Shown here in pieces: positions 9,134-42,309 of a stretch of 64,000 bases of DNA (the first letter of the stretch is position 1; every line of letters begins with the position of its first letter). A model generated the notes under the pieces. The model was given only the letters and a program-made list of their open reading frames with translations. It was not told where the DNA came from and did no database searches. A program made the translations under genes and the position numbers. The stretch is taken from positions 934,501 to 998,500 of the forward strand of contig JACEFZ010017425.1 of the NCBI GenBank assembly GCA_014155875.1. Direction: 5' to 3'. Origin of the DNA: Cepaea nemoralis. Taxonomy: Eukaryota > Mollusca > Gastropoda > Stylommatophora > Helicidae.

Positions 9134-9695
9134 CTACTTCTGGGGTCCACCATGGGGCTGCAAAAAAGGATTTTTAACAGCCCTGTTGTATGCCCCCTGT
9201 CTGAGGCGTCCAAGAAGGCTATCGGTCCACTCATACCGGAAGGTCTTGCGCGCTCTTCCAGCCTGAACTTTCCTGGCTTTAGAGATCAGGACAGCATGGC
9301 AAGTGATCACTCCTATGGTCATTCAAAACAGTCCACTTTACATCAAGGAATGATGACTGGGAGACAAGTGCTAAGTCAATAACTGTGTCTGCATCGCCAG
9401 GCCTCATTGCTATTCTAGTCGGCCTACCATCATTTATGCAGACCACATCGGAGTCCACCATGGCATCCGCAAGGGCAATTCCCGGTCGGTTTTCTCCACT
9501 ACTGTCCCAATCTCTGCTCCTCGCATTGAAGTCTCCACATATGAGTAGCCTATCACCTGGTAATTCCTCCAATTCCTTAAGCCAGTCCCAGTGTTCCTTT
9601 CTGAAAAAAACAGTCCACTGTAGCATATACATTTATGATGTTCCATCTTAAGCCACCAATCTCCATTTGTATACCCTGGACCTCTCTTGCACTAT
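9134..9695 (-). pseudogene. Element A: endonuclease, C-terminal part
   Basis: On the minus strand this carries the APE endonuclease motifs LLICGDFNARSRDW and NDHRSDHLP, followed by a linker toward the RT with a frame change near 9280. The part before 9695 continues across the LTR insertion: its N-terminal half is at 19971-20230. The insertion point falls in the middle of the domain. Confidence 0.88.
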
Positions 9696-12600
9696 TGTAG
9701 TCGATGGTAAAAGAACAAAGGGAGACAATCATAAAGACTTATGCTTCCTTCACTACGGTGCTAAGAGGTAAAGAGTAGTTCTGACTTCGTTACGGCCAAA
9801 GAAGAAAAATAGTGAAAAGAGAGAGAACCTCACACCGCCTCAACCGACAAAAAAAGAGGATAGTAATTAGATAAGAAGATATACGAGATCTCAGGCAGGG
9901 GCCTCAACTCTGGACTGACTGTCATATTTGAGACCCAGACATTGGATTAAGGTGTTAGATTGTGGTAGAAATATTGACTGTAAAAAGTAAAAACTAAAAG
10001 AGACTAAACAAACAAATCAAGGACAAATAAACAAGCTCTTTATTTATTTCTTCGAACAGCACATTGCATGTCAATAACAGATACAATAGACAACTGTATA
10101 TATCAAATCACCACAGTGGGTAACCCCTAACCAATCAACAGCACTTAAGACAACAGGGTACACCAAGTACCACAACACAGGTGTTCCAAACAATAGGCTG
10201 GTTAGACTGACACTATAAAGAACTTTGACACAAGCAACACTGCACAGACAATAAGGCACTACAAAAACATAGGTTACACAACATAAACCCCAAGACGCGA
10301 CATAAACAAGAGTTGTGACACAATTTACTATCCCACCAAGAACCCAGGCCTGCTGACACTAACTAGTCAGCCGCTCCTGTAACAATGGAAAACACAATCT
10401 ATGATTATCATTGTAAAGAAGACATATTAAACACATGAAGCAATGAGCACATGAATTAACCCATAGGTCATAAATGTACCTCCATCTAATTATCTATTCT
10501 GTTATTCTGAGGTAACCCTTGATGTCTATGTCATGATCATTCTTTGCTACCCCCTTCTTCAAGGTGACTACATCTCTAATTGTTAAATACAACAATCAGT
10601 ATTGCATCATCAGGTCACCCACTTTATTTTCTTCTCCAATTGTGCCACTGCTATCATGAGATTACACTTGATATTGCTAGAATGGACCACCTAATGCAAC
10701 AATGTCAATCTGCTCCACCTTTTCAGTTCAATGTAACTACACCACACAGCTCCTACATACACAAGCCGTGGAAGATTGATCTCATTTGTCCAGCTGTAAA
10801 CACATAGCTACAAACAACAGAGTACATACATCAGCCGTTGCAAACAGCCACAACATCTCAACACATTTGGTTAACATATAACAGACATTGCACACAAACA
10901 ACATATCAGCATTGATTCAGTTAACAGGCATAAGAATGACATCTTTGTTCTGGTAAATTAGGCTGTCATTCCTACCTACCAAAGTGGCTACATTTGCCAA
11001 GGAACCCATAATCAGTTCCCTGTCTACACCTTCTAGAATATTTTATACATTAATTTGTACCAAGTCACCGGTAACACCAGACAACACAATATTCCCTATA
11101 AACCACAAGTTCATGGAACACTATCAATGTTCAACCCAAGATATTGTCACAACTAAACACTACCTACTATATTCTCAGCCTAATGCTCAACAATTCCCTA
11201 TCCACTGTTACGCACACCGGCAACTGTTTTGCTAACACACCGTACTCTTTTCCCTAATATAAAACATATATTGACAGGTTGAACTCCTGTGCTCCACATC
11301 TGATAGTACACTTTACTCCTATGCAACAATACACAACATTATGAACTCTGCCACCATCAGACCCTAAGTTACCTCAACATAGGGACTTCACTGGACAACT
11401 ACCTCAACAATGTCCCAGTTTGCATGAAGAGTACCAGCACTAATATGATACTGTGCAAGTTACAGCATCTGATTAGCATTACAAACTAACAACCAGCAAG
11501 CAAAACATGTCTAACTATGAAAAGCAACAGACATACATACAATGTGGAAACACCATATCTGTAGAATGTGACAATGTAACCTTACACATAGAAGAATCAC
11601 AACATTCACAGAAAGTTAAAGATAAAGATAAACATTTATTACACAGGAACTCATTTAGGGACTCTCTGATGCCCCTAAGATAGCTCATAAAATAAACACA
11701 CAATATTACTAAGTGAAAGTACACTAAATAGTGGCCACAGTGCCTCATTCATATGAGGCAGGATCCAAGAACAACAATGTCCATGGCAGGATACAGAACA
11801 TTAGTTCTAATATAATAAACAGTGTACTATATATATTATGTCACTATTACACACTAATGACCAATAAGTGTTATTCAAGGCCCAACACAATCAGTGTAAT
11901 ATTATTTGTGAGTGGACAACAAATGTACAGTTGTGCGCTCTGTTCCCCACCATTCTTCCTATGATACACCGGTTATAAATTTTGCCTATCTTACGCTTCA
12001 TGTCACACGACAAATACATATTAATATCTCTGCGAAGGGTGGTACGCAGTACTAAATCACATTCCTCTCCCCCGTGCGACAACCGCCATGCTTAACTTAG
12101 GACAGAATCTCAGTCACTGATTCCATCAACAACTTGATACACCTACACAAACATTACTGCATTCTGGTAACAGATGTGACGCCAGACTTCACTTACTGCT
12201 GAACACCCAATTCCTGTACTATGTTGAATATTGTTGAACTGCCAAATTGTGTATAATTCTAACATTAAAGGGCACTGAAGTGATTCATTCAGGCTATTCT
12301 AGTTAACTGTGTACCTACTAAAAGTACACAGCATCAATGTATTAATTTCTCCCCAATTACTATTTATGTGGTCTAACTACATATATTAACCATTAACCCA
12401 TCATTGCCACATATAACATGTAAGTACCCTTCCCTGCTTTACACATGTTATAAATATTACACATATATTATGGTTATTTTCCCCTACTCATTGTTGCTTT
12501 GGAGTGTTCATACCCAACACTTGACCAAACATCCAATGTGATGCTCACCATTGTCACAGAATAATCCTGTAAACATATCTTGCTGCTGTATACACATACA

Positions 12601-13424
12601 CATATGATTCTCACCACTCTGTTGTTAAGTAACCTTCATTTCTAGCAACCTCACAAGCACTTACTCCCTTCCATGCCAACATGGCCTGCATGGCACCATG
12701 TGGCATTATTTCAGTCTTTACTATAAACTAATTTATGACCCCACACATTGTATATTTTGGTGAATCTCCCACATATCTATTTAGCCAGTAACACATTAAT
12801 GCCATAGGATAACCATGTAAAATAATTCCCAACAAAATAATCTTGTGCCAGCATGGCTGGCATGACATGACATCAGTCTCTATGGTACTTCACCACCATC
12901 AATGACCTATTCTACATATTTCACATCACCATTGTCTGATTGCTGACATCTCTATGAATTAAATGTTATATTCCTAAAACCTCAGGGACGTTACATTGAT
13001 CTGTAGAACAGCTCACTTTAGTAATACTCATCTACATTATCTATTTATATTTCTTTGTTCCTACCACTCTGCCTAACAGCTTTGTTCCCACACATCGGTT
13101 TTCCCACGTGAACGCTTTTCAAGCCTGTAACATGGCGTGTGCTGCGATTTAACAAATATTTATTAAATTAAACATTTTACACTTACGGCTTTTTCTTCTG
13201 ACATATGTTGTTCACTGATGAACAGATGGGAAACCCCACATATCTTGTCTCAAGGCGGGCTGGCCACAAAACTACACAGGGCCCCAGCGCCTGCCTTCAC
13301 ACCGATCTGGCTGCTACAAGGAAAAATGGCCTCCGGTCTTTGTGATAAAGTGGCGTTTCCGGCGTGGCCAGGACCGTACGGTTTTCACAGACCAAACTAA
13401 GTGCCTTGGTTTGGCGCTGTGACA
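9696..13424 (-). repeat. 3' LTR of the gag-only element
   Basis: A 3,729-bp LTR with TG...CA ends. It holds only short open frames (60-83 aa) that occur identically in the partner LTR and resemble no protein. It is AT-rich, with a GC-richer end near 13250-13420. The purine tract lies just beyond it at 13425-13445. Confidence 0.93.
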
Positions 13425-13445
13425 TATCCAACCCCCTACTTTTTT
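13425..13445 (-). other. Polypurine tract
   Basis: On the minus strand AAAAAAGTAGGGGG lies a few bases upstream of the 3' LTR start. This is the expected place for the second-strand primer. The 7 bases between the tract and TGTCAC are slightly more than usual. Confidence 0.6.
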
Positions 13446-14652
13446 GACGTCCCGTCAAAAGGAATGGACTATCGTATCCCCTTACCCCAACTATCTCTTT
13501 ACAAGTTAACATCTACACATAAACCATCATCAAAATTACCAACGCCCAAAAAAAAATAAAGCCACCTGTGACCTCATCCAAAAATAATCATCAATGAAAC
13601 AAGGATTCATTTAAATTTACACACAAACCGCCATCAAAATGACAAAGGCATAACAAATCTATGTCACATGTTACCACATCCAAAAACATAATCATCAATC
13701 AGTCAAGACACCAATGACAGTTATACGTAACCAGCCATCAAAATGACATCAGACTTCTATGCCCTAACAATTCCCTGGTCATAGAGCACAACCATCAACA
13801 ACAACAAAAACTTTTGTCACCTTTGGAGACCTTGCCCCCAAAACCTAAACTGCTGGTTATATCCCTGAAGAGTACCACTTAACAAAATAGTCTTTTTCTA
13901 TTCAATCATCACTTACAATGTGAACCAGTGTAGATTACATCACCAAGCATCAGTCTTTTCCAAATACCAATAATCTCAACACAAAAGTATAAACCATACT
14001 AGCTCAGTTGTTGGTACTAATGACTAAAATAACATCAGTGAGGAAAAATAGCTCTTCTGCTATAAGAGCACCAATTGTAACAAAATGAATACAACCCTCA
14101 CTTCTTACATAAAAATAATTAAACAAACATAAACATTAAACCAGTAACCTTTATATTGGTTACTACTTCCCTTAACTCTGGAAATTCAACACAAAATGTA
14201 TTTAAAAATAATACCTTTTGTCTCTTCAAATATAAGCTTCCTGCAGCTACTGTGGTACCTAAATGACTTGTTTTTCTATCAACCTGTATCTCTACACTAA
14301 AAAGAACATTTCATCATGTGTCACCTGTAACCTGAATATAAACATAAAGGAAAATATACCGGGCCAACAAAACATTGTTATTTCAATAATATCCCACCTC
14401 ATGAATTCACTCTGGAAGTTACTCTCTTACTGGACATGATGGTAATGACAACACCACATGAACAACAGAACCACCCCTTTCACCTGGTCTGCCTGGCGTT
14501 CTTGCACTCTAAAAGAAAGACATGTCATCACATGACACCATCTACCTGCAATCATAATATATAACAACAGCAAAACATAACTGCTAATTAACTAACTACA
14601 CTAAGGCTGTCAATCCAAAAGACTGGAATTTCTAAACGGATGAAAACAGTCT
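13446..14652 (-). other. Non-coding internal region between gag and 3' LTR
   Basis: About 1.2 kb where protease, reverse transcriptase and integrase would sit in an autonomous LTR element. No open frame of useful length and no pol motif was seen on either strand. The sequence is AT-rich and full of CA/AT words. Confidence 0.7.
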
Positions 14653-15969
14653 CTATCTTTCACAACCATGTCTAACGGGCAAAAGTTCTTGCTGGTGGTC
14701 TTTCACAATCCCCTTTTGCACAAAGTCACGAGATGACATATCGGTATGCAGAAAATTTTGGCCCACACCCGTCACAAAACACTGACCATCTGTCACATCA
14801 CTTTGACCATCTGTCACAAGTCTAACCCTCAAGTCACCCTCTAACTGTTCAGCCACACTGACACAAGGAGACTTCCATTGTCCCCTCCTCCTCCGCCTCT
14901 TCCTGCAAAAGAAATTTCTCTGGTTGCCACACATAACCATCCGGCTACCAGAAGTTGACACTGCACCCACCTGAACTGCTGGGGCTGATCCTTTAGAAGG
15001 ATCAACCTGGGGCGGACTCTGTTGTCGCTTAAGGCCCTGCTGGTCTCGGTGGCTTACGTTGGCAAATGCTTTGCTACAATTGACTCCAGAGGGGTTCTGA
15101 ATAACACCAACCCCTCTCTTCGGACACCTGTTTTGGAGGTGTGTGCGGCTTCGACAAACATTGCACCTCTTGCGTTGTACCTTGGGCTGCAGCAACGAAT
15201 CAGCTAAGGCTCTCATCCGACCTAGCTTAGCTCGAAGTTCCTCCACCACCACATCATCATGCTGGACCCCTTGACACTGACCACTGGCATTAGGCCACCT
15301 CTCTGAACTGTAATCTTGACGTTCTACATATTGGTATGTACAGACTTCTGGAGCTAACGACACACCAGCCCATCGCATGGCCAAGTCTCTAACACAAAGG
15401 AAAGTCACTGAAGGGTCATGCGATATCCTCTCCTCTGCCATTCTCCTGCTGAGAACATTATGTAGTTTTGCAACAAACCAGTCTCTTAGGATCACTGGAT
15501 CCCAAGCAACCATGCCCCTCTTTCTCTGAGCTTCCAGCACCAAACGAAAGGCTTTGTGGACCCGGTGAGAGAAATCCATGATGGATTCCTCTGCATCTTG
15601 TGTTACTTGAAAGAAAGCCGCAGCCAGTTCCACCATGCTGCGCTGCTCTCCATACACCTGCTGAATGGTCTGCAGCATCTCCTCAGGGTCATTACAAGCT
15701 GACCTAAGTTCAAGTTCCGCCCACACACTGGGAGCAACACTTTCACAAATAATGTCCACTTTATCTTCATCGCACACCGCACCAGCCCTCCAGGCAGATC
15801 TCACCTTCCTCACATACTTCTCAACAGCTGGCCCACCTTGCCGGCCAAAACAAGGTACTTCTATCTTCACAGGTGCCACTATGTACCTGACTTCACCAGT
15901 GGGCCCTGTGATGTCAGGGGCACCAACTGGGAGGGGAACTACGGTCCCTAACGTTGAAGACAGAGCCAT
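14653..15969 (-). CDS. Gag-like protein with CCHC zinc knuckle, 438 aa
   Basis: An intact 438-codon frame that fills the start of the internal region after the primer-binding site, as gag should. The N-terminal two thirds look like a helical retrotransposon gag/PNMA-type capsid: charged helices around residues 45-190, including EKYVRKVRSAW and RDWFVAKLHNVLSRRM. Residues near 268-281 form one CX2CX4HX4C knuckle, CNVCRSRTHLQNRC, which would bind packaged RNA. The C-terminal part is basic (KRRRRRG) and then low in structure. No protease or RT follows in any frame. The start ATG lies about 250 bp inside the 5' LTR edge. The intact frame fits a young insertion or selection for gag supplied in trans. 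Capsid assignment is by general resemblance only. Confidence 0.8.
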   Translation of the reverse strand: MALSSTLGTVVPLPVGAPDITGPTGEVRYIVAPVKIEVPCFGRQGGPAVEKYVRKVRSAWRAGAVCDEDKVDIICESVAPSVWAELELRSACNDPEEMLQTIQQVYGEQRSMVELAAAFFQVTQDAEESIMDFSHRVHKAFRLVLEAQRKRGMVAWDPVILRDWFVAKLHNVLSRRMAEERISHDPSVTFLCVRDLAMRWAGVSLAPEVCTYQYVERQDYSSERWPNASGQCQGVQHDDVVVEELRAKLGRMRALADSLLQPKVQRKRCNVCRSRTHLQNRCPKRGVGVIQNPSGVNCSKAFANVSHRDQQGLKRQQSPPQVDPSKGSAPAVQVGAVSTSGSRMVMCGNQRNFFCRKRRRRRGQWKSPCVSVAEQLEGDLRVRLVTDGQSDVTDGQCFVTGVGQNFLHTDMSSRDFVQKGIVKDHQQELLPVRHGCER

Positions 15970-16217
15970 CCTTGCTCTGGATAGGATACAGTGAAAGTGT
16001 ACTTAGTACTAGGAGGCAATTTATCTGAGCCCACTCACCATACAGGGGACTCCTCTCTTGTGCAGCAATGCCCGGGGGATCTCAGCAGCAAACCTGGGTT
16101 CTAATGTCACAACTCAAAGACAATGGACACCACAAACATAAACACTGACCTATCACACAAAACAATCACTAGATACTAAAACAATTCCTAACAGAACAAT
16201 TCAAAGGCTGCCACAAT

Positions 16218-16235
16218 ATCTCGTCGGGGTCGCCA
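16218..16235 (-). other. Primer-binding site
   Basis: On the minus strand TGGCGACCCCGACGAGAT begins three bases inside the 5' LTR edge. TGG complements the CCA end of a tRNA, as in LTR-element first-strand priming. The tRNA species was not identified. Confidence 0.75.
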
Positions 16236-16238
16236 TTT

Positions 16239-19200
16239 TGTAGTCGATGGTAAAAGAACAAAGGGAGAAAATCATAAAGACTGATGCTTCCTTCACTACG
16301 GTGCTAAGAGGTAAAGAGTAGTTCTGACTTCGTTACGGCCAAAGAAGAAAAATAGTGAAAAGAGAGAGAACCTCACACCGCCTCAACCAACAAAAAAAGA
16401 TGATAGTGATTAGATAAGAAGATATACGAGATCTCAGGCAGGGGCCTCAACTCTGGACTGACTGTCATATTTGAGACCCAGACATTGGATTAAGGTGTTA
16501 GATTGTGGTAGAAATATTGACTGTAAAAAGTAAAAACTAAAAGAGACTAAACAAACAAATCAAGGACAACTAAACAAACTCTTTATTTATTTCTTCGAAC
16601 AGCACATTGCATGTCAATAACAGATACAATAGACAACTGTATATATCAAATCACCACAGTGGGTAACCCCTAACCAATCAACAGCACTTAAGACAACAGG
16701 GTACACCAAGTACCACAACACAGGTGTTCCAAACAATGGCTGGTTAGACTGACACTATAAAGAACTTTGACACAAGCAACACTGCACAGACAATAAGGCA
16801 CTACAAAAACATAGGTTACACAACATAAACCCCAAGACGCGACATAAACAAAGAGTTGTGACACAATTTACTATCCCACCAAGAACCCAGGCCTGCTGAC
16901 ACTAACTAGTCAGCCGCTCCTGTAACAATGGAAAGCACAATCTATGATTATCATTGTAAAGAAGACATATTAAACACATGAAGCAATGAGCACATGAATT
17001 AACCCATAGGTCATAAATGTACCTCCATCTAATTATCTATTCTGTTATTCTGAGGTAACCCTTGATGTCTATGTCATGATCATTCTTTGCTACCCCCTTC
17101 TTCAAGGTGACTACATCTCTAATTGTTAAATACAACAATCAGTATTGCATCATCAGGTCACCCACTTTATTTTCTTCTCCAATTGTGCCACTGCTATCAT
17201 GAGATTACACTTGATATTGCTAGAATGGACCACCTAATGCAACAATGTCAATCTGCTCCACCTTTTCAGTTCAATGTAACTACACCACACAGCTCCTACA
17301 TACACAAGCCGTGGAAGATTGATCTCATTTGTCCAGCTGTAAACACATAGCTACAAACAACAGAGTACATACATCAGCCGTTGCAAACAGCCACAACATC
17401 TCAACACATTTGGTTAACATATAACAGACATTGCACACAAACAACATATCAGCATTGATTCAGTTAACAGGCATAAGAATGACATCTTTGTTCTGGTAAA
17501 TTAGGCTGTCATTCCTACCTACCAAAGTGGCTACATTTGCCAAGGAACCCATAATCAGTTCTCTGTCTACACCTTCCAGAATATTTTATACATTAATTTG
17601 TACCAAGTCACCGGTAACACCAGACAACACAATATTCCCTATAAACCACAAGTTCATGGAACACTATCAATGTTCAACCCAAGATATTGTCACAACTAAA
17701 CACTACCTACTATATTCTCAGCCTAATGCTCAACAATTCCCTATCCACTGTTACGCACACCGGCAACTGTTTTGCTAACACACCGTACTCTTTTCCCTAA
17801 TATAAAACATATATTGACAGGTTGAACTCCTGTGCTCCACATCTGATAGTACACTTTACTCCTATGCAACAATACACAACATTATGAACTCTGCCACCAT
17901 CAGACCCTAAGTTACCTCAACATAGGGACTTCACTGGACAACTACCTCAACAATGTCCCAGTTTGCATGAAGAGTACCAGCACTAATATGATACTGTGCA
18001 AGTTACAGCATCTGATTAGCATTACAAACTAACAACCAGCAAGCAAAACATGTCTAACTATGAAAAGCAACAGACATACATACAATGTGGAAACACCATA
18101 TCTGTAGAATGTGACAATGTAACCTTACACATAGAAGAATCACAACATTCACAGAAAGTTAAAGATAAAGATAAACATTTATTACACAGGAACTCATTTA
18201 GGGACTCTCTGATGCCCCTAAGATAGCTCATAAAATAAACACACAATATTACTAAGTGAAAGTACACCAAATAGTGGCCACAGTGCCTCATTCATATGAG
18301 GCAGGATCCAAGAACAACAATGTCCATGGCAGGATACAGAACATTAGTTCTAATATAATAAACAGTGTACTATATATATTATGTCACTATTACACACTAA
18401 TGACCAATAAGTGTTATTCAAGGCCCAACACAATCAGTGTAATATTATTTGTGAGTGGACAGCAAATGTACAGTTGTGCGCTCTGTTCCCCACCATTCTT
18501 CCTATGATACACCGGTTATAAATTTTGCCATCTTACGCTTCATGTCACACGACAAATACATATTAATATCTCTGCGAAGGGTGGTACGCAGTACTAAATC
18601 ACATCCTCTCCACCGTGCGACAACCGCCATGCTTAACTTAGGACAGAATCTCAGTCACTGATTCCATCAACAACTTGATACACCTACACAAACATTACTG
18701 CATTCTGGTAACAGATGTGATGCCAGACTTCACTTACTGCTGAACACCCAATTCCTGTACTATGTTGAATATTGTTGAACTGCCAAATTGTGTATAATTC
18801 TAACATTAAAGGGCACTGAAGTGATTCATTCAGGCTATTCTAGTTAACTGTGTACCTACTAAAAGTACATAGCATCAATGTATTCATTTCTCCCCAATTA
18901 CTATTTATGTGGTCTAACTACATATATTAACCATTAACCCATCATTGCCACATATAACATGTAAGTACCCTTCCCTGCTTTACACATGTCTATAAATATT
19001 ACACATATATTATGGTTATTTTCCCCTACTCATTGTTGCTTTGGAGTGTTCATACCCAACACTTGACCAAACATCCAATGTGATGCTCACCATAATCACA
19101 GAATAATCCTGTAAACATATCTTGCTGCTGTATACACATACACATATGATTCTCACCACTCTGTTGTTAAGTAACCTTCATTTCTAGCAACCTCACAAGC

Positions 19201-19966
19201 ACTTACTCCCTTCCATGCCAACATGGCCTGCATGGCACCATGTGGCATTATTTCAGTCTTTACTATAAACTAATTTATGACCCCACACATTGTATATTTT
19301 GGTGAATCTCCCACATATCTATTTAGCCAGTAACACATTAATGCCATAGGATAACCATGTAAAATAATTCCCAACAAAATAATCTTGTGCCAGCATGGCT
19401 GGCATGACATGACATCAGTCTCTATGATACTTAACCACCATCAATGACCTATTCTACATATTTCACATCACCATTGTCTGATTGCTGACATCTCTATGAA
19501 TTAAATGTTATATTCCTAAAACCTCAGGGACGTTACATTGATCTGTAGAACAGCTCACTTTAGTAATACTCATCTACATTATCTATTTATATTTCTTTGT
19601 TCCTACCACTCTGCCTAACAGCTTTGTTCCCACACATCGGTTTTCCCACGTGAACGCTTTTCAAGCCTGTAACATGGCGTGTGCTGCGATTTAACAAATA
19701 TTTATTAAATTAAACATTTTACACTTACGGCTTTTTCTTCTGACATATGTTGTTCACTGATGAACAGATGGGAAACCCCACATATCTTGTCTCAAGGCGG
19801 GCTGGCCACAAAACTACACAGGGCCCCAGCGCCTGCCTTCACACTGAGCTGGCTGCTACAAGGAAAAATGGCCTCCGGTCTTTGTGATAAAGTGGCGTTT
19901 CCGGCGTGGCCAGGACCGTACGGTTTTCACAGACCAAACTAAGTGCCTTGGTTTGGCGCTGTGACA
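16239..19966 (-). repeat. 5' LTR of the gag-only element
   Basis: A 3,728-bp partner of 9696-13424 with the same ends and near-identical sequence. For this minus-strand element it is the promoter-bearing LTR. Beyond it lies CTAT, the right copy of the target-site duplication, then the interrupted endonuclease of element A. Confidence 0.93.
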
Positions 19967-19970
19967 CTAT

Positions 19971-22855: not shown

Positions 22856-23546
22856 TGTCACCAGTCATTGATTTTTCTCAAGAAGTCAAGGTTTTTTTTT
22901 TTTTTTTTTTAAATTTTTAGAAGGCTCACGGTTCCCAGAAGGGCCAGAGCCGCCCCACTAGGTCCCGCGTCCCTGTGTGTCGGTTGTGTTGGGTGATCAT
23001 CCCGGCTCCTGGCAAGATCAAGTGCAGATACTACACTTTGATCTAAGCCAAAATGCCGAAAGTTGCTGAATCACTAGGAAATTAATCCAAAACAATGTCC
23101 TGACACTAGATGTGACCATAAAAATAATAATCTGCCTTATTGGTGAAATTGTTTGGGGAAAAATGAGATAGCTCGAAATTGAGAAATTTCAACATATCGC
23201 CGGTCATTGATTTTTCTTGAAAGATCAGAGTTGCTGGATCACTAGGAAATTAGTCTAAAGCCAAAGCAATGTCCTGACACTAGATGTAACCATGCAAATG
23301 ATAATCTGCCCTAGTGGAGTAATTTTATGGGGGAAATTGAGACAGCTTAAAATTTAGAAATTTCAACACGTTTCTTGACTTTTCCCAAAAACAATCAAGT
23401 TGCCAAATTAATTTTTAAAAAATTTTTCGAAAACAATGTGCTGATACTAGATATTACCATAAAAGTAATAAACTGCACTACTGGATCAAGTTATTTGGAA
23501 AAAAACGGAGATTGCTCCAAATGTAGATATTTCAACAGGTGCGTGA
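22856..23546. repeat. ~165-bp tandem array, three units
   Basis: Units begin at CAGTCATTGATTTTTCT near 22860, again near 23202 and in diverged form near 23368. Each continues with GTTGCTGGATCACTAGGAAA, ACAATGTCCTGACACTAGAT, and ends with GAAATTTCAACA. Removing the ~180-bp SINE from the first unit restores the same period, which shows that the SINE inserted into an existing array. Confidence 0.75.
22882..23061 (-). mobile_element. U2 snRNA-headed SINE with poly(A) tail
   Basis: About 180 bp on the minus strand. It starts TCGGC, then ATTTTGGCTTAGATCAAAG and TGTAGTATCTG, matching the 5' ~35 nt of U2 snRNA with two single-base insertions. It continues with an unrelated GC-rich body (GGCGGCTCTGGCCCTTCTGG) and ends in about 20 A residues. 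Full U2 structure after the branch-site region is absent, so it is not a U2 gene. A U2 head, foreign body and poly(A) tail resemble snRNA-derived SINEs or L1-type chimeric retrocopies. Confidence 0.7.
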
Positions 23547-33053: not shown

Positions 33054-34622
33054 CTATAACTGCAATGTTGTCTCTTGTATGAATCTAACAGTCTTTTTTA
33101 GTTCACTCAGCGGTCCATAGAGTTTATCTTCCACTGTTGTCTCTCTAGGCCAAAAGGTTCGCCTGGATATGTTGTAGTTTGGGCAGTCCTGGAGTATGTG
33201 CTCTGCTGTCTGTGATGCCAAACCACATGTGCACATGGTTGAGTCACAAATCTTGAATTTTGTATACATGTGGTTGCGTAATCTATTGTGTCCTGTTCTG
33301 AGGCGCAGAATAATGACCTATTCTGGTCTCTCCATAATGTGGTAGTCGTCTTGCGTAGGGTTTGGTGGCCTTCTGACTGATTTGATCATTCTTTTCTTTT
33401 GGTGGAATGTAATGGGCACATCAGGCTGTTCTTCTTTTGCTCCTTCCTTAGCCAATCGATCAGCTCTGTCGTTTCCGGGTACTCCACAGTGGGATAGTAT
33501 CCACTGTATGGTGACCTTATGCTGACTGCCAAGTTCAGAAAGTAGTGTCCTTAGAACTGGTAATTTCCCAGACAGGAGTGCCTCTATTACGGATTTTGCA
33601 TCTGTCAATATCACCACAGGTTGTCTACCATGGCTGGTATTTTGTAATTTCTCTATTGCTATCTTGATTGCCTCAATTTCAGCATCATAGTTATGGCAGT
33701 ACTTTCCTTTTGGAACTCTGGCTGTGTCCCTAGTATTATTTGGGTATTCTATATACACTCCCGCTCCTCCATTTGGAACAGCATTTTGCGCTGACCCATC
33801 TGTGTAGACTCGAATCCAGAGATCCTGTGGGTATTCGTCATCAAGGAAGCTGAGAGTGGCTGTTCTGCGCTGTACACTGTTCTGTTCTTCCTTGTCAAAT
33901 ATTCCTCTCACTTTTGTCTGGATTTGTAGCGATAGTCTATGTTCATCTTTCCATGGAGTTCGCTCTGGAATAGTTGTCAGTGGGATACCAACTGTGGGAA
34001 GATCGGTGGTTTCTCTGCAGAGTCGTTTGGCCTGGTGGATAAAACTACTTCTTTTCAACCGCCCCATAGCTAAGTTTTCAAATCGGTTCTTCATAGGGTG
34101 GCCTGGCAAGCTGAGGAACTTGTCTGCTTGTATTAGTGTTTTTGTATCTCTGCGTTCTCTCAGTGCTTGTGTCCTCCCCATTTTCTCCATTGCTACTATA
34201 GGGGTTGATCTCATCCCTCCTGTGATGACTCTAAGAGCTTGATTTTGCACCTTGTCCAGCTCTTGTAGTGTGGTTTTTGATGCTGAACACCACGCAGTTG
34301 ATCCGTATTCCAGGTGTGGTCGTATGCTCTGTTGATAAACTTTGCTAAGTATTTTCCCACTGGCTCCCCATGTGGTTCCACTTAGCTTTCTCAGGATGGC
34401 TATTTTCCTTCTGGCTTTTGCTACAGCTTTTTTGATGTGTTTTCTCCATGTCAGCCTGTCATCAAATGTTACACCAAGGTATGTTGGTTCTTTATCTTCT
34501 CTTAGGGGCGTTCCATTTATCTGGATGATCCCTGCTTTTTGTTTCGGATAGAGGGTAAATAGAGTGGTGCTGCACTTGTCAGTGTTTATGCTGACACACC
34601 ATACTATCCCCTCATGCAACAA
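33054..34622 (-). pseudogene. Element J: RT thumb, RNase H and C-terminus
   Basis: A continuous minus frame (34622-33318) carries YLGVTFDDRLTWRKHIKKAV and HLEYGSTAWCSASKTTLQEL. It then has a complete RNase H with VYTDGSAQNAV, EIEAIKIAIEKL, VILTDAKSVIEALL and GNDRADRLAKEGA (the D-E-D-D residues are all present). A single stop after MERPE (33318) precedes VIILRLRTGHNRLRNHMY and CTCGLASQTAEHILQDCPNY (33269-33054), a Cys/His motif common at the end of such proteins. A TAG in place of CAG would explain the stop. Confidence 0.88.
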
Positions 34623-36158
34623 ATAGTATCTACAGCTTTCTGTAGCAATATGGTGGCCACTGATGCATGTTCATTTGTGCTCCACAAAACCAGGTCATCA
34701 GCGTACATTGCCGCTTTAATTCCATCGGGTAGATTAGCAACAAGATCATTGATGAAGATTAGAAAAAGTGTGGGGGACAAGACTCCGCCCTGCGGAACAC
34801 CGTGACGCAATAGTACTTTCTTGCTCTTATGACAGTCTATCTGTACTCGGGCTCTTCTGTTGTGCAAGTATGCTTTCACCCATTTGTACATTCTTCCATT
34901 GACTTTACAGTTTCTCAGTTTCTTCATAAGACCTTCTTTCCAGACTTTGTCAAAGGCTTTCTTCAGATCTATCCATGCCGCAAGTACCAGCTTCTTCTCT
35001 TGGAATGCATCCTCAACTTCTTGAGAGAGATAGGTTGTCTGATCTTCCGTAGAGTAGCACTGCCTAAAGCCAGCCTGTTGTGGCACAAGGATGTTTTCAC
35101 TTTCAATGTACCACTGTAGTCTGTGATTGATGATGCGTTCCAGTGTTTTGCAGAGACAGCTGGTGAGGCTAATTGGTCTGTAGCTGGAGGCAATGGAACT
35201 ATCTTTCCCAGATTTTAGGAGGGGTATCATGATTGCTTCTCTCCAGGCTTGTGGAACACTGCCTAAGTTCCAGGTGTTATTGAAGATCTGTAACAGCTTT
35301 GCTTTGGCCTCTGTTCCTAGGTTTCTGATCATTTCATTGGAGATACCATCTGCTCCTGGTGACTTTCTCATTTTCAGTTTTGATATTGCTAGCTCCAGTT
35401 CACTGATTTTGATAGGTGCCTCCATAACCTCATGTACTATTTCCTTCTGTCCTGTATGTTGCCATTTCTCTCGAATCTCCTGTTGTTTCTCTGGACTAAT
35501 TTCTATATTGTTATCTTGTGCGAATGAGTCCGCAAAATGGTCAGCTGCTTGCTTTCCTGTTAAGATGTTTCCGTCTTTATGTAGTGCAATTTTTGAGTTT
35601 CTCCCTGAACCCTCATCGTTAAGCTGTTTTATTAGCTTCCACAACTTCCTTGTGTCTCTTTCAAAGTTCAGTGACTCTGTTTTCTCCTGCCAGCTTTTCC
35701 GTCTAGCCTGCAGCTGGGCCCTTTGAAATTTGGCTTTTGCGTGCTGGTATTTATTGTGGTGCTCTTGGCAGGGGTAAGCTTCTGCTTGCCTTCTACACAC
35801 TTCCACATCATTATGCAACTGTTCCAGTTCCCTACTCCAGTAGGGTTTATAATGTTTACAGGCTCCTCTTGGTACTGTTTCTTGTGCTGCCTGTAGTATG
35901 CATTTCCCAAACTCAACTACTTTATTTATGTCCCCTCTCAGTGTTCAGATTTCTAACCAATATGCTGGTGTGAAGCTTGTACATTGCCCAGACTGCCTTC
36001 TTGTAGTTCCACCTCGAGAGAGTGCTGCTTTCACTTACAAGCTCATTTTCTACAATTAGAAAGACTGACCAATGGTCACTGCCACCTAAAGTGTGTTTTT
36101 TTTGTTGTTGCCTCAATATAAAATTCAATATCTCAGTAACAGACCAACTAGAGATCAC
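34604..36158 (-). pseudogene. Element J: endonuclease end and reverse transcriptase
   Basis: The 404-aa minus frame 35818-34604 holds RT motifs RKSPGADGISNEMIRNLG, SYRPISLTSCLCKTLERII, AAWIDLKKAFDKVWKEGL (palm Asp), HGVPQGGVLSPTLFLIFIND and AMYADDLVLWST (YADD). Upstream, two short frames at 36158-35922 and 35916-35668 carry the end of the endonuclease and the linker, with a frame change near 35920. The RT frame leaves at 34604, and the next frame takes over at once, implying one frameshift around 34610. Catalytic residues are intact. Confidence 0.9.
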
Positions 36159-37960: not shown

Positions 37961-40712
37961 TAGGGTTGTACCGGATTTCGGCTCCGGCAAATCCGGAATC
38001 CGGCCATTTTTACAAATCCGGCTTCGGCTCCGGCTCCGGTCCAATTTTGCCAGATTTAGGCCGGATTTGTGTTGCCTAGTCACGTGAATTTTCTGTACAT
38101 GTTTCATGAGGCCAAGTCGAATTTTAGGCAATAGCACAGTAGCACTTCCGGTTTACTATTTCTTGCTGATGTAAATAAGAATTTTAAGAAAAAAACACTC
38201 ATTTTGAATTTTAATGGTGCATTACTTCATGAGTTTGTGGGACTTGAATATTTCTTATTTTCGTAAATTTCTTTGGTCTTGCCCATAAAATAAAATGGCA
38301 TCAAAATCTAAGTCATACAGCGCCAGTTTGGATTACTTCAAGGTTAAAGACGATGATTCAGCGAAGGTAATATGTAAGTTGTGTGACAAACAGTTATCGC
38401 GTGGACGATCAGATCGCCCCAAAGACTTCTCAACATCATCAATGCAGACCCATTTGCGATCGATGCACAGGAAAAGCTATGACGAAATGATGGAAAAGAA
38501 AGCATCACTGGAGGCCAGTGTATTGGCGACCACATCTATGATGAATCTGGGACCGTGTTTGCACAAAGCAAGCAGCAGTACCCAGCAGTCAATTGTGCAG
38601 GCATGGGACCGGGCCAAAATTTGGGACATCAACAGTCCCAATGCTAAACGCATTCATGCTGCCGTAGCCCGAATGATAGCCATAGATATGGAGCCTTTTC
38701 AAGTAGTGGAACGACCAGGTTTCAGAGAGTTGATGCATACAATGGAAAAAAGGTATGAATTGCCTTCAAGAAAGTACTTTGCTGAACATGTCATTCCTGA
38801 CATGTGTAAACGTCTGAAGGTAAAAATTGCAGCAATGATATCTGACACTGATTACATATCATTCACAACAGATACGTGGACAGCTGAACACACCACTCAG
38901 TCATTTATGGGCCTCACTGGCCATTGGTTAACAGACTCCTTCGTTCACCGCAGTGTAGTCTTCCATTGTACTGCATTTGATGAACATCACATGGCCACAA
39001 ACTTGCTTGCACATTTTGAAATGATGCTGGATGAGTGGTCAATTGCACGTGAGAAGTGCCATGTTGTTGTGAGAGACAATGCATTCAACATTGCCAAATG
39101 CTTTCGTGATGGCAGCTATTCAAGTGTTGGATGTTTTGCACACACACTGCAGCTGTGTGTGCGTGATGGTCTTTTGAGTCAAAAGTATGTTGCTGGCATC
39201 ATCAGTACTGGAAGAAAATTGGTAGGACATTTCAAACACTCTTCTTCAGCAACCAGTCGTTTGCATGAACTTCAAAATGAATTAAACCTACCACAACATC
39301 AGCTTATCCAGGACGTGACAACACGATGGAACTCAACGTTCTATATGCTACGACGTCTGTTAGAACAACGGCGCAGCATCAGCCTGTACTGTGTTGAAAT
39401 TGATTCGGTAACTGGGCTAACGGCACAGCAGTGGGCAGTCACGGAGAATGTGGTAGCTACTTTGGCACCATTTGAAGAAATCACACGTGAAATAAGTGCA
39501 GCTCAGGCATCAATATCAGTTGTGATCCCATTAGTGAAAACACTCATGGCTTTCCTCCAGAAAGAAGGTAGTGATGCTGGGATCAAAACTATGAAAGCAG
39601 CCCTGCTTGAAGCTGTTAGCAGCAGATTTGCGGACATTGAATCCAACAGTATTTACACCTGTGCCACACTACTGGATCCTCGATTCAAGCTGTGCTTCTT
39701 CTCCGAATGTGGTAGAAGTGATGCACGAGCCCATCTGCTGTTAGCAGCTAACTCCATTATTGATTCAGCAAACACAGTCAGTCCACAGGATCCATCAGCT
39801 ACTAGTAGTAGTAGTAGTACTAGTGTTTTGACTTCTGTGAGCACTGCCACACAGTACGAGTCCAGCCTATGGAGCTGTTTTGACACAATTGTCGAGGAAA
39901 ATCCCACCACAGATCGTTCTGCAAGTGCCGAAGGCAACAGCATTAACACTGAGGTGACACAGTACCTGTCAGAGCCACTTCAAACTCGACAGTCAGATCC
40001 AGTTTCATGGTGGCATGCCAATAAGCAAAGATTTCCAAGTATGGCTAGACTGGCGCAGGCATTTCTTGCACCACCACCTACAAGTGTGCCATCGGAAAGG
40101 CTGTTCAGTACTGCAGGAGACATTATCACTGACCACAGTAGTAGCCTTTTACCACAAAATGCGGAGACGTTGATTTTCCTGACATACAACTTGTCCCTTC
40201 TTGACTCTGAGAGTTCAACTTCACAGCCATAATGAAGACTGACTGACTGAAATAGTGAAATTACTGAATGAATGTATTTCAATAAATTCAATCTGTTCAA
40301 TGTACTGTTGTTGTGAGTTGTAACTGAGCTGCCAATTTGCCAACTGAAAACAATGTGAAAACTAAAAACTGAAACTGAAAACTAAAAATTAAAATTACTA
40401 AATTAGCATTATGTGCTTTCATCTTGAACTTATGGAACTTAATATTACTTAATTACTTATTCTAATGTAAATGTAATTATTTTACATTTAAATGATTTAA
40501 TATGAGTATATGTCATCATTGTCATGTCTATAGTAATGAACTGCAGTAATGAACAGTCGGGTGACTCCACTCACCTAAGTCAAGTGATGTAGTACGTTAT
40601 TTTATTTTTATTTTTTTATTTGTAAATCCGGCTCCGGCCGGATCTCACTTCATAAATCTGGCCAAATCCGGCTCCGGCCAGATTAAAAAAATTTGAATCT
40701 GGTACAGCCCTA
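37961..40712 (+). mobile_element. hAT DNA transposon hAT-3, apparently intact
   Basis: 2,752 bp between perfect 8-bp duplications ATTGTAAC (37953-37960 and 40713-40720). Terminal inverted repeats: TAGGGTTGTACCGGATTT on the left and TAGGGCTGTACCAGATTC read inward from the right. Both subterminal regions are packed with short CCGGCTCCGG / AATCCGG motifs, likely transposase-binding sites as in Ac-type hATs. It encloses a complete 645-aa transposase ORF. The insertion splits the third catalytic Asp motif (VVIVT/DSQSM) of the RNase H of element B, inside intron 1 of the host gene. Confidence 0.95.
38295..40232 (+). CDS. hAT transposase, ZBED1-like, full-length 645 aa
   Basis: An uninterrupted frame from ATG to stop inside matched inverted repeats. 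N-terminus: a BED zinc finger with C27, C30, H53 and H58, which would bind the terminal and subterminal repeats. Catalytic region: FTTDTWTAEH (Asp about 193), VVRDNAFNIAKC (Asp about 261) and EEITREISAAQ (Glu about 399), in the D-D-E order of hAT enzymes, with helical insertion between. WNSTFYMLRRLLEQR (about 350) is also typical. C-terminus: the hAT dimerisation domain with SWWHANKQRFPSMARLAQAF and SVPSERLFSTAGDI (about 572-612). The length is normal for this family. Part of the 5' leader (37961-38294) probably carries the promoter. No introns are evident. Nothing visible prevents activity, which is inference from an intact frame. Confidence 0.95.
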   Translation: MASKSKSYSASLDYFKVKDDDSAKVICKLCDKQLSRGRSDRPKDFSTSSMQTHLRSMHRKSYDEMMEKKASLEASVLATTSMMNLGPCLHKASSSTQQSIVQAWDRAKIWDINSPNAKRIHAAVARMIAIDMEPFQVVERPGFRELMHTMEKRYELPSRKYFAEHVIPDMCKRLKVKIAAMISDTDYISFTTDTWTAEHTTQSFMGLTGHWLTDSFVHRSVVFHCTAFDEHHMATNLLAHFEMMLDEWSIAREKCHVVVRDNAFNIAKCFRDGSYSSVGCFAHTLQLCVRDGLLSQKYVAGIISTGRKLVGHFKHSSSATSRLHELQNELNLPQHQLIQDVTTRWNSTFYMLRRLLEQRRSISLYCVEIDSVTGLTAQQWAVTENVVATLAPFEEITREISAAQASISVVIPLVKTLMAFLQKEGSDAGIKTMKAALLEAVSSRFADIESNSIYTCATLLDPRFKLCFFSECGRSDARAHLLLAANSIIDSANTVSPQDPSATSSSSSTSVLTSVSTATQYESSLWSCFDTIVEENPTTDRSASAEGNSINTEVTQYLSEPLQTRQSDPVSWWHANKQRFPSMARLAQAFLAPPPTSVPSERLFSTAGDIITDHSSSLLPQNAETLIFLTYNLSLLDSESSTSQP

Positions 40713-41599: not shown

Positions 41600-41882
41600 A
41601 TTGATGATGATGATGATATATATATACTACAGGAGACAAATGAAAATCGTAGACTGATTAGAGGAATTAGACGAAGATAGTCAAAATTTTTTGGACATGT
41701 TATGAGAAGAAATGGATTGGAGAACTTATTGACAACTGACAAGATCGAGGGGAACAGACCAAGAGGAAGACCGAGAGGAAAATACCTGGATGGCTTGGCC
41801 ACATGGCATGGACGAGACAGGAACACTGAGCTGATCCACGACTCCTGTGATCGTGTGAAATGGCGAGTCATGACCGCCTACG

Positions 41883-41885
<3 letters not shown>
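41600..41885 (+). pseudogene. RTE-like 3' end fragment G3 running into (TA)n
   Basis: Plus-strand residues KFFGHVMRRNGLENLLTTDK, IEGNRPRGRPRGKYLDGL and RDRNTELIHDSCDRVKWRVM are the C-terminus of the family whose better copy is at 53.1-56.2 kb. The normal ending (SRHGT and tail) is replaced by the TA microsatellite. Confidence 0.75.

Positions 41886-41963
<78 letters not shown>
41886..41963. repeat. (TA)n microsatellite
   Basis: About 78 bp of TA dinucleotides. With the shorter TATATATATA at 42239-42250 it brackets the hammerhead-bearing segment. Confidence 0.95.
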
Positions 41964-41965
<2 letters not shown>

Positions 41966-41999
41966 ATTATTTGGTTGTTTCGGGATTTGAAATTTAAAT

Positions 42000-42240
42000 A
42001 TTGAGCACAACCCACTACTGGCAACGCCGATCGCATTCCGGCACAAACCTAAGGCCTATCCACGTCATGGAAACACTATACTCGAGTTTCGCCCTCGTTT
42101 GAGCTCGTCAGTAGTGCATATCCCTGACCGGATCCGGAAACAAGCCCCGGATCACGCGTGTGAAGCGGGTGTGTAACCACGCGGCACACACTGGACACGC
42201 CAAATTATCACACCGGAATACCACAACGCTACCCATCGTA
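42000..42240 (-). mobile_element. GC-richer segment carrying a hammerhead ribozyme, possible Penelope/retrozyme terminal repeat
   Basis: About 240 bp of clearly different composition between two TA tracts. It has no reading frame. It contains the hammerhead motif at 42069-42123. Penelope-like elements, retrozymes and some SINEs carry such ribozymes in their terminal repeats; which of these this is cannot be told from one copy. A Penelope GIY-YIG remnant exists at 52.5 kb in the same window but is not linked to this copy. Confidence 0.5.
42069..42123 (-). ncRNA. Type I hammerhead ribozyme motif
   Basis: Read on the minus strand: stem I 5' strand GCACUA; core CUGACGA (fits CUGANGA); stem II GCUC, loop AAACGA, GGGC (4 bp with one G-U); core GAAA; a very short stem III (A-U and C-G pairs) closed by loop UCGA; cleavage triplet GUA; then UAGUGU, which pairs fully with the stem I strand (one G-U). 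GGA and UCC can extend stem I beyond an internal loop. All invariant core positions are present. Predicted cleavage is between minus-strand bases at 42079 and 42078. The 2-bp stem III with a 4-nt loop is the form known from Penelope-like elements and newt and schistosome repeats. Confidence 0.82.
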
Positions 42241-42251
42241 TATATATATAA

Positions 42252-42300
42252 TTTTTTTTTGCATATCCTTTACAGGACATCACTGTCAACACCAGCATCT
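42252..42300 (-). repeat. tRNA-type SINE S1, 3' end fragment
   Basis: Minus-strand GATGCTGGTGTTGACAGTG, then ATGTCCTGTAAAGGATATGC and an A run. This is the conserved 3' end of the S1 SINE family. The 5' part is missing. Confidence 0.75.
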
Positions 42301-42309
42301 TATATATAT

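Follow-up and report, generated by a model that had tools for sequence, protein, structure and literature searches.

A retrozyme-like repeat with a type I hammerhead motif in Cepaea nemoralis, and its proposed mobilisation by Penelope-like elements

The hammerhead locus and its surroundings

The DNA analysed here, a stretch of 64,000 nucleotides from the gastropod Cepaea nemoralis that is referred to below as the window, carries a complete type I hammerhead motif on its minus strand, at 42117-42073, with all of the core elements and three stems located. The motif lies in an inserted copy, at 41962-42240, that exceeds it in extent and that represents part of a repeated unit of 402 nt. Positions in the window and, where relevant, in the unit are as follows.

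41885..41961, no strand: (TA)n tract, left flank of the insertion and part of its target, from flank comparison
41962..42240, minus strand: retrozyme-like copy, from position 1 (at 42240) to position 279 (at 41962) of the 402-nt unit
41964..41989, minus strand: AC-rich tail between start sites A and B, CAAATCCCGAAACAACCAAATAATCA, with A or C at 22 of its 26 positions
41990..42001, minus strand: region of the putative reverse transcription start site A, about unit 240-251 (..ATATTTAAATTT), used by 17 of 40 arms
42073..42117, minus strand: type I hammerhead ribozyme motif, unit 124-168, from profile alignment, structural descriptor and shuffles
42080..42087, minus strand: helix III palindrome ACUCGAGU, two copies of which can pair over 8 bp
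42241..42250, no strand: (TA)n, right flank of the insertion and part of its target, from flank comparison

The window copy is a one-armed insertion of 279 nt, 5'-truncated at unit position 1 and with its 3' end at start site B, the ends being placeable only to within a few bases in a target that itself consists of TA. It differs from the consensus of 35 units at a single position, unit 168 C>T (window 42073), by which a G-C pair of stem I becomes G-U. A preliminary description of the locus had placed the hammerhead in an island between TA repeats, which is borne out, and the TA tracts reflect the target of the insertion.

The immediate flanks of the copy are fragments of other repeats. Just to the right of the island, at 42259-42302, is a dispersed repeat starting about TGCATATCC..TTTACAGGAC, with four more copies in the window (48111-48067, 24314-24273, 25859-25813 and 63950-63893). 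At 41628-41884 is the 3' end of a non-LTR element that stopped short of its usual end, with the TA tract directly after it; further copies of this 3' end are found at 48564-48307 and 25672-25446. Elsewhere in the window, an LTR retrotransposon (9695-19970) has unusually long LTRs of 3.73 kb that are 99.25% identical, a 4-bp duplication (CTAT), and an interior of just 2.8 kb with a minus-strand gag-like frame (PNMA, 24.1 bits, cut-off 25). An open frame of 647 aa on the plus strand, at 38289-40229, corresponds to a hAT transposase with a BED zinc finger and a dimerisation domain, and its matches gave no information on the host. The nearest named matches of a non-LTR reverse transcriptase (RT) frame at 34607-35944 are from land snails (Candidula at 74%, covering 72% of the query, and Bradybaena at 81%, covering 46%) and from other gastropods and bivalves, which points to a gastropod as the probable host. 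A weak match to U2 snRNA lies at 22988-23067 on the minus strand (26.3 bits, against a cut-off of 46).

Every invariant hammerhead position that the preliminary description had named on the minus strand is present. The stem I strands, GCACUA and UAGUGU, occupy 42117-42112 and 42078-42073 and pair over 6 bp, the core CUGACGA occupies 42111-42105, and GAAA and GUA are also in place. Stem II consists of 4 bp (GCUC/GGGC) with a loop II of 6 nt, and stem III of two pairs, A-U and C-G, capped by the loop UCGA, again as first described. Cleavage is predicted between 42079 and 42078 on the minus strand, that is, between unit positions 162 and 163.

All 45 positions of the Rfam Hammerhead_1 model (RF00163) align with the motif, at a score of 31.6 bits (E = 6.7e-4 when the whole window is compared with 4227 families, and 3.7e-6 with a segment of 351 bases) that is slightly below the gathering score of 34. 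The check by Rfam hammerhead models proposed at the outset thus succeeds in the full-length alignment and falls short in the score, and no Rfam family reaches its gathering score in the window. A full structural descriptor, comprising the core, stems I-III and the cleavage triplet, matches a single site in the window and has no match in any of 1000 dinucleotide-preserving shuffles; the loose pattern CUGANGA..GAAA..GUH is not significant, with 12 occurrences in the window against 7.56 expected, and 12 or more in 14 of 100 shuffles. Judged from its sequence, the motif is of the RF00163 class, having the conserved core, the three helices and the open helix I. That the hammerhead consensus has been matched by chance, for which the score slightly under the Rfam cut-off and the random expectation of the loose pattern alone might be cited, is hardly credible, and as a sequence claim is already refuted by the shuffles and by the identity of the motif in all 35 aligned full units.

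The 402-nt unit and its predicted RNA

In the genome of the window (3.47 Gb, 26,579 contigs), at least 43 near-identical matches to the element were found, the best 40 of 1477 first-look candidates having been scored. Stretches of all 22 other contigs with listed matches, together with the window, provide a sample of 23 insertions, which are the best matches to the window and hold little information on older copies. Copies in tandem recur with a period of 402 bases or a few more, giving a unit of 402 nt. The 35 full units have a mean identity of 99.0% (median 99.5%, minimum 94.1%), a figure that is biased upwards because the sampled copies were chosen as best-scoring against the window's own sequence, and the hammerhead region (unit 124-168) shares its invariance with most of the remaining columns. 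Repeated head to tail, the unit has a longest ATG frame of 42 codons and a longest stop-free stretch of 94.

The many copies, many of them in tandem, agree with the initial suggestion of a retrozyme-like element with a type I hammerhead. It had also been anticipated that other copies would exist with covarying stems; the copies are there, and covariation is not apparent, both partners being altered in 1 of 141 pairs, a count that is uninformative because the copies are too alike. In one array (L016:2610-3420), two diverged units have a C-G pair of the long arm replaced on both sides by U-A, and within that helix two alignment rows have a further two pairs disrupted. Separately, one retrozyme insertion site is found on two contigs (L014 and L026), with slightly different arrays, and may represent alleles, haplotigs or a segmental duplication.

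When folded as a circle, the sense RNA of one L014 unit is predicted to reach -163.3 kcal/mol (z -5.7, with 0 of 100 shuffles as low) with 70.6% of the 402-mer paired, whereas the antisense circle has a predicted z of -2.6, with 3 of 100 shuffles as low. Retrozyme RNAs are described as 'above 70 %' paired (PMC4918200). The predicted free-energy minimum of the true 402-nt unit is without the native hammerhead fold, the single hammerhead lying 3.2 kcal/mol above the minimum in the linear monomer and the double hammerhead 3.6 kcal/mol above it in the linear 402-nt tandem. With the 237-nt island taken as the unit, the tandem fold gave a complete double hammerhead (in 4 of 5 boundary choices and 7 of 10 rotations of the native sequence, in 0 of 60 and 6 of 1000 cases with shuffled flanks, and in 4 of 120 with the outer stem I kept), a result that is withdrawn, since the true unit is 402 nt and its minimum is devoid of this structure. 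From the double-hammerhead argument, only the palindrome ACUCGAGU and a predicted cofold, in which two isolated hammerhead cores form a double hammerhead, still stand.

The unit resembles the non-LTR retrozymes of animals, which are likewise described as protein-free units of a few hundred nucleotides with a type I hammerhead, tandem copies and highly paired RNA (PMC7229834), and which are already known from a mollusc, in the case of the mussel (Cervera and de la Pena 2020, PMC7229834). Animal retrozymes are given there as about 170-400 nt with less than 45-50% GC, and the 402 nt and 51.5% GC of the snail unit, slightly above these published ranges, are counted against the retrozyme reading. 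Because the typical size and GC content are not those of the unit, it is filed here as a variant that works like a retrozyme, and not as a standard member. A further difference from animal retrozymes as described is that most of the snail arrays are double and head to head, and start at two fixed sites.

The hammerhead also appears closer in form to those of retrozymes, keeping a stem III of 2 bp, a loop II of 6 nt and, in the predicted fold, an internal loop inside stem I, whereas Penelope hammerheads usually are without helix III and loop contacts (PMC6155905, PMC7761336). Thus the short stem III that had been taken for the Penelope form is indeed present, but its attribution does not hold. 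A weak helix III with a palindromic tetraloop, permitting a dimeric hammerhead, is shared with the satellite retrozymes of newt and axolotl; the axolotl units are 330-350 nt, and the snail helix III consists of A-U and C-G within the palindrome ACUCGAGU (PMC7229834, PMC6155905). The SINE-like elements Sm-alpha and Sj-alpha of Schistosoma are similarly short, dispersed and equipped with a hammerhead, but the schistosome repeats carry a tRNA part (PMC4918200), and no tRNA-derived part was found in the snail element.

Anatomy of the insertions

The 23 insertions comprise 40 arms, 38 of which start at one of two sites, A (17 arms) or B (21 arms), that are about 30 nt apart. Starts at site A fall at unit 240-256, that is, in the A region or within 5 nt of it, and starts at site B, at the 3' end of the AC-rich tail, fall at unit 272-292. 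The two arms that start elsewhere belong one each to L018 and L033.

As assembled, 17 of the 23 insertions are head-to-head double arrays, in which units of opposite orientation have their 5' ends meeting centrally and both outer ends are 3' ends. Fifteen of the doubles combine one A end with one B end, and so have a single tail each; none combines A with A or B with B, and the remaining two combine B with an odd end. Were the ends drawn independently, such pairing would have a probability of about 5e-5, for 14 distinct sites, the 15 insertions counting as 14 because L014 and L026 share a site. The six one-armed insertions end at B in four cases (L017, L019, L020 and the window) and at A in two (L028 and L034).

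Outside TA tracts, at least 10 nt are common to both boundaries in 16 of 21 insertions, compared with 7 of 418 in a control with mispaired flanks; L021 and the window were excluded from this count because both sit in TA tracts. Fourteen of the 16 duplications are 11-13 bp, lengths that may include letters common to the element's own ends, and all are AT-rich (75-100% A+T). Double insertions have a duplication in 15 of 16 cases, the exception being L018, as against one of five for one-armed insertions. By this strict measure 5 of the 21 are without a duplication, and in the case of L019 the use of wider zones reveals a duplication of 12 bp, 17 nt away from the element.

Arm length ranges from 181 to 2437 nt, with up to six units per arm. 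The hammerhead cut site is passed at least once by all 40 arms, and a single arm (in L033) ends within 5 nt of it; the template was therefore not a monomer already cut at this site. Arms stop at unit 231-299 in 17 of 40 cases (6.9 expected, P 1.5e-4, for an interval chosen post hoc), which brings many arms close to an integral number of units, and at unit 387-394 in 7 of 40 (0.8 expected, P 1e-5, for a cluster likewise chosen post hoc), with the other 16 stopping in neither. A circular template or a block at a bound site would explain the former stops, and an RNA 5' end would explain the latter. Variants shared between units are too few to discriminate a circular from a multimeric template.

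Penelope-like elements as the proposed source of mobility

This anatomy is shared with Penelope-like elements (PLEs), for which two internal starts of reverse transcription around an AC-rich segment, a tail of about 30 nt on one side, an inverted head-to-head copy, an AT-rich target and short duplications are described (PMC11167929, PMC3846280). For instance, with purified Poseidon of Anolis, reverse transcription starts at two adjacent internal RNA sites in an AC-rich stem-loop, the segment between the two corresponds to the genomic 'tail', and both strands of the AT-rich DNA that the enzyme cuts are extended, the start site being no different between the two target strands (PMC11167929). Penelope inserts of bdelloid rotifers typically adjoin a pLTR in inverted orientation and have target duplications of 8-10 bp; one inverted pLTR may bear a tail of 31 bp, and foreign sequence can be mobilised in trans by pLTRs (PMC3846280). 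The snail unit differs from PLEs in having no RT frame, in its unit-length repeats as opposed to a pLTR-ORF-pLTR arrangement, and in its fuller hammerhead, and with no RT plus GIY-YIG frame it is not itself a PLE.

PLE frames of the autonomous type do occur in this genome, as judged by sequence. At least 107 matches to GIY-YIG are above the cut-off, the best 150 of 2019 candidates having been scored, and two long open frames have RVT_1 (27.9 and 26.5 bits, Pfam cut-off 29.6) followed by GIY-YIG. The 30 GIY-YIG loci retrieved are connected to one another by similarity, and these PLEs are presumably akin to the Neptune clade. No match of more than 15 nt to the unit was found in the 30 loci (with about 1.5 kb of flanks) or in two longer loci, and the descriptor detects no intact hammerhead in any of the 30. 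The loci examined need not include the partner of the unit, which may be another PLE. Downstream of the PLE frame, 12 of 15 aligned loci have a motif like a degenerate minimal hammerhead, and one more has it in changed form; it looks different from the hammerhead of the unit. This TTGACAAAGATTCTGAGAATCGAAACGTCG-like motif, with its core changed, follows the frame in PLEs L040-L064 (the 12 of 15 aligned), L065 and L066. On the reverse strand of L065, the first 1.7 kb consist of an array of repeats of about 90 bp, directly upstream of a PLE frame of 909 aa.

The two adjacent start sites, the AC-rich tail, the inverted arms and the short AT-rich duplications suggest mobilisation by PLEs, and the link to Penelope lies in this insertion anatomy and not in the form of the ribozyme. 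We favour, with a probability of roughly 0.78, the reading that PLEs mobilise in trans a protein-free, retrozyme-like element of 402 nt, of which the feature in the window is a truncated copy. Counted against this reading are the absence of a match of more than 15 nt between the unit and the PLE loci examined, the equal start sites of the two target strands in the Anolis study, the modest predicted fold of the AC-rich segment (-9.3 kcal/mol for 75 nt), the two odd starts among 40, the five of 21 insertions without a strict duplication, and the hidden hammerhead.

In the mechanism that we propose, retrozyme units would be transcribed as multimers or circles, the multimers presumably being cut into units by the hammerhead. 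The RT/GIY-YIG enzyme of a PLE would bind the AC-rich tail and cleave an AT-rich target on both strands, and the two cut strands would prime on retrozyme RNA at different sites, A for one and B for the other. Arms would then grow inward from both ends of the target and meet head to head, with copying covering anything from a fraction of a unit to six units, and stopping near the bound site, at a 5' end of the RNA or elsewhere. Extension of a single strand would leave a short one-armed copy, such as that of the window. We lean towards the view that retrozymes are to PLEs what SINEs are to LINEs, with both cut strands using a two-site RNA at once, one of them A and the other B. Stops near A and B and at 387-394 would then correspond to the bound enzyme and to a natural 5' end of the RNA, respectively, the latter arising from an internal promoter or a processing site. 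The novelty lies in the strict rule of one A and one B, the allocation of A and B by strand not being a finding of the Anolis study (PMC11167929).

Alternatively, the retrozyme could be moved by an ordinary LINE, with twin priming in the style of L1 making the inverted arms, and with A and B as preferred 3' ends. LINE insertions also show short duplications and 5' truncation, and LINE fragments are abundant in the window. In addition, LINE-like duplications of 15 bp are described for hammerhead repeats of Nematostella (PMC4918200). However, the insertion ends compared lack a consistent 3' tail of poly(A) or simple repeat, and the fixed internal starts, with A paired to B in 15 of 17 doubles, fit the tail of a PLE, and we regard movement by a LINE as unlikely. 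The near-identical units in tandem and inverted arrays, and the hammerhead hidden in the predicted free-energy minimum, could also be read as a satellite repeat spread by DNA-level events, in which the hammerhead is a passive remnant. This is quite improbable, given that the copies sit in distinct insertions with target duplications of their own and show fixed ends and 5' truncation, all of them marks of retrotransposition, that the predicted folds of sense and antisense RNA differ as described above, and that the hammerhead is invariant in the full units, though most other columns are as well.

A small RNA that is predicted to be highly paired and that has a ribozyme motif might, finally, derive from a viroid-like or delta-like agent, a free-living circular RNA that the genome has captured, but the many copies with retrotransposon anatomy, the absence of a long frame, and the type III form of the delta-like hammerheads described from toad and termite (PMC7936874) make such an origin very improbable. 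Two hammerhead patterns had no match in viral_contigs, and the island had none among phages, both being collections in which the agent need not occur. A pattern scan of genome_contigs gave four prokaryotic matches, all without the stems, which were set aside as chance.

PLEs have been proposed as the movers of retrozymes by Cervera and de la Pena, because of the coexistence of the two, their common type I hammerheads and their tandem occurrence (PMC7229834, PMC7761336). Among the papers listed from a mainly open-access literature, titles and the opening parts of abstracts yielded no gastropod or cephalopod retrozyme, and no listed report treats a retrozyme jointly with target-primed reverse transcription; the single paper in which hammerhead ribozymes and octopus occur together names them in its references alone. 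In the snail, the published PLE signature is seen in the insertions themselves, which bears on the question of the enzyme that moves animal retrozymes. The sampled copies are recent enough for clean ends, and the unit is without a sizeable gene; the A and B ends and the tail would therefore be cis-acting signals alone, making the family a clean substrate for studying how PLE copying starts. Such a family could show why one end has a tail, and whether each DNA strand has a start site of its own.
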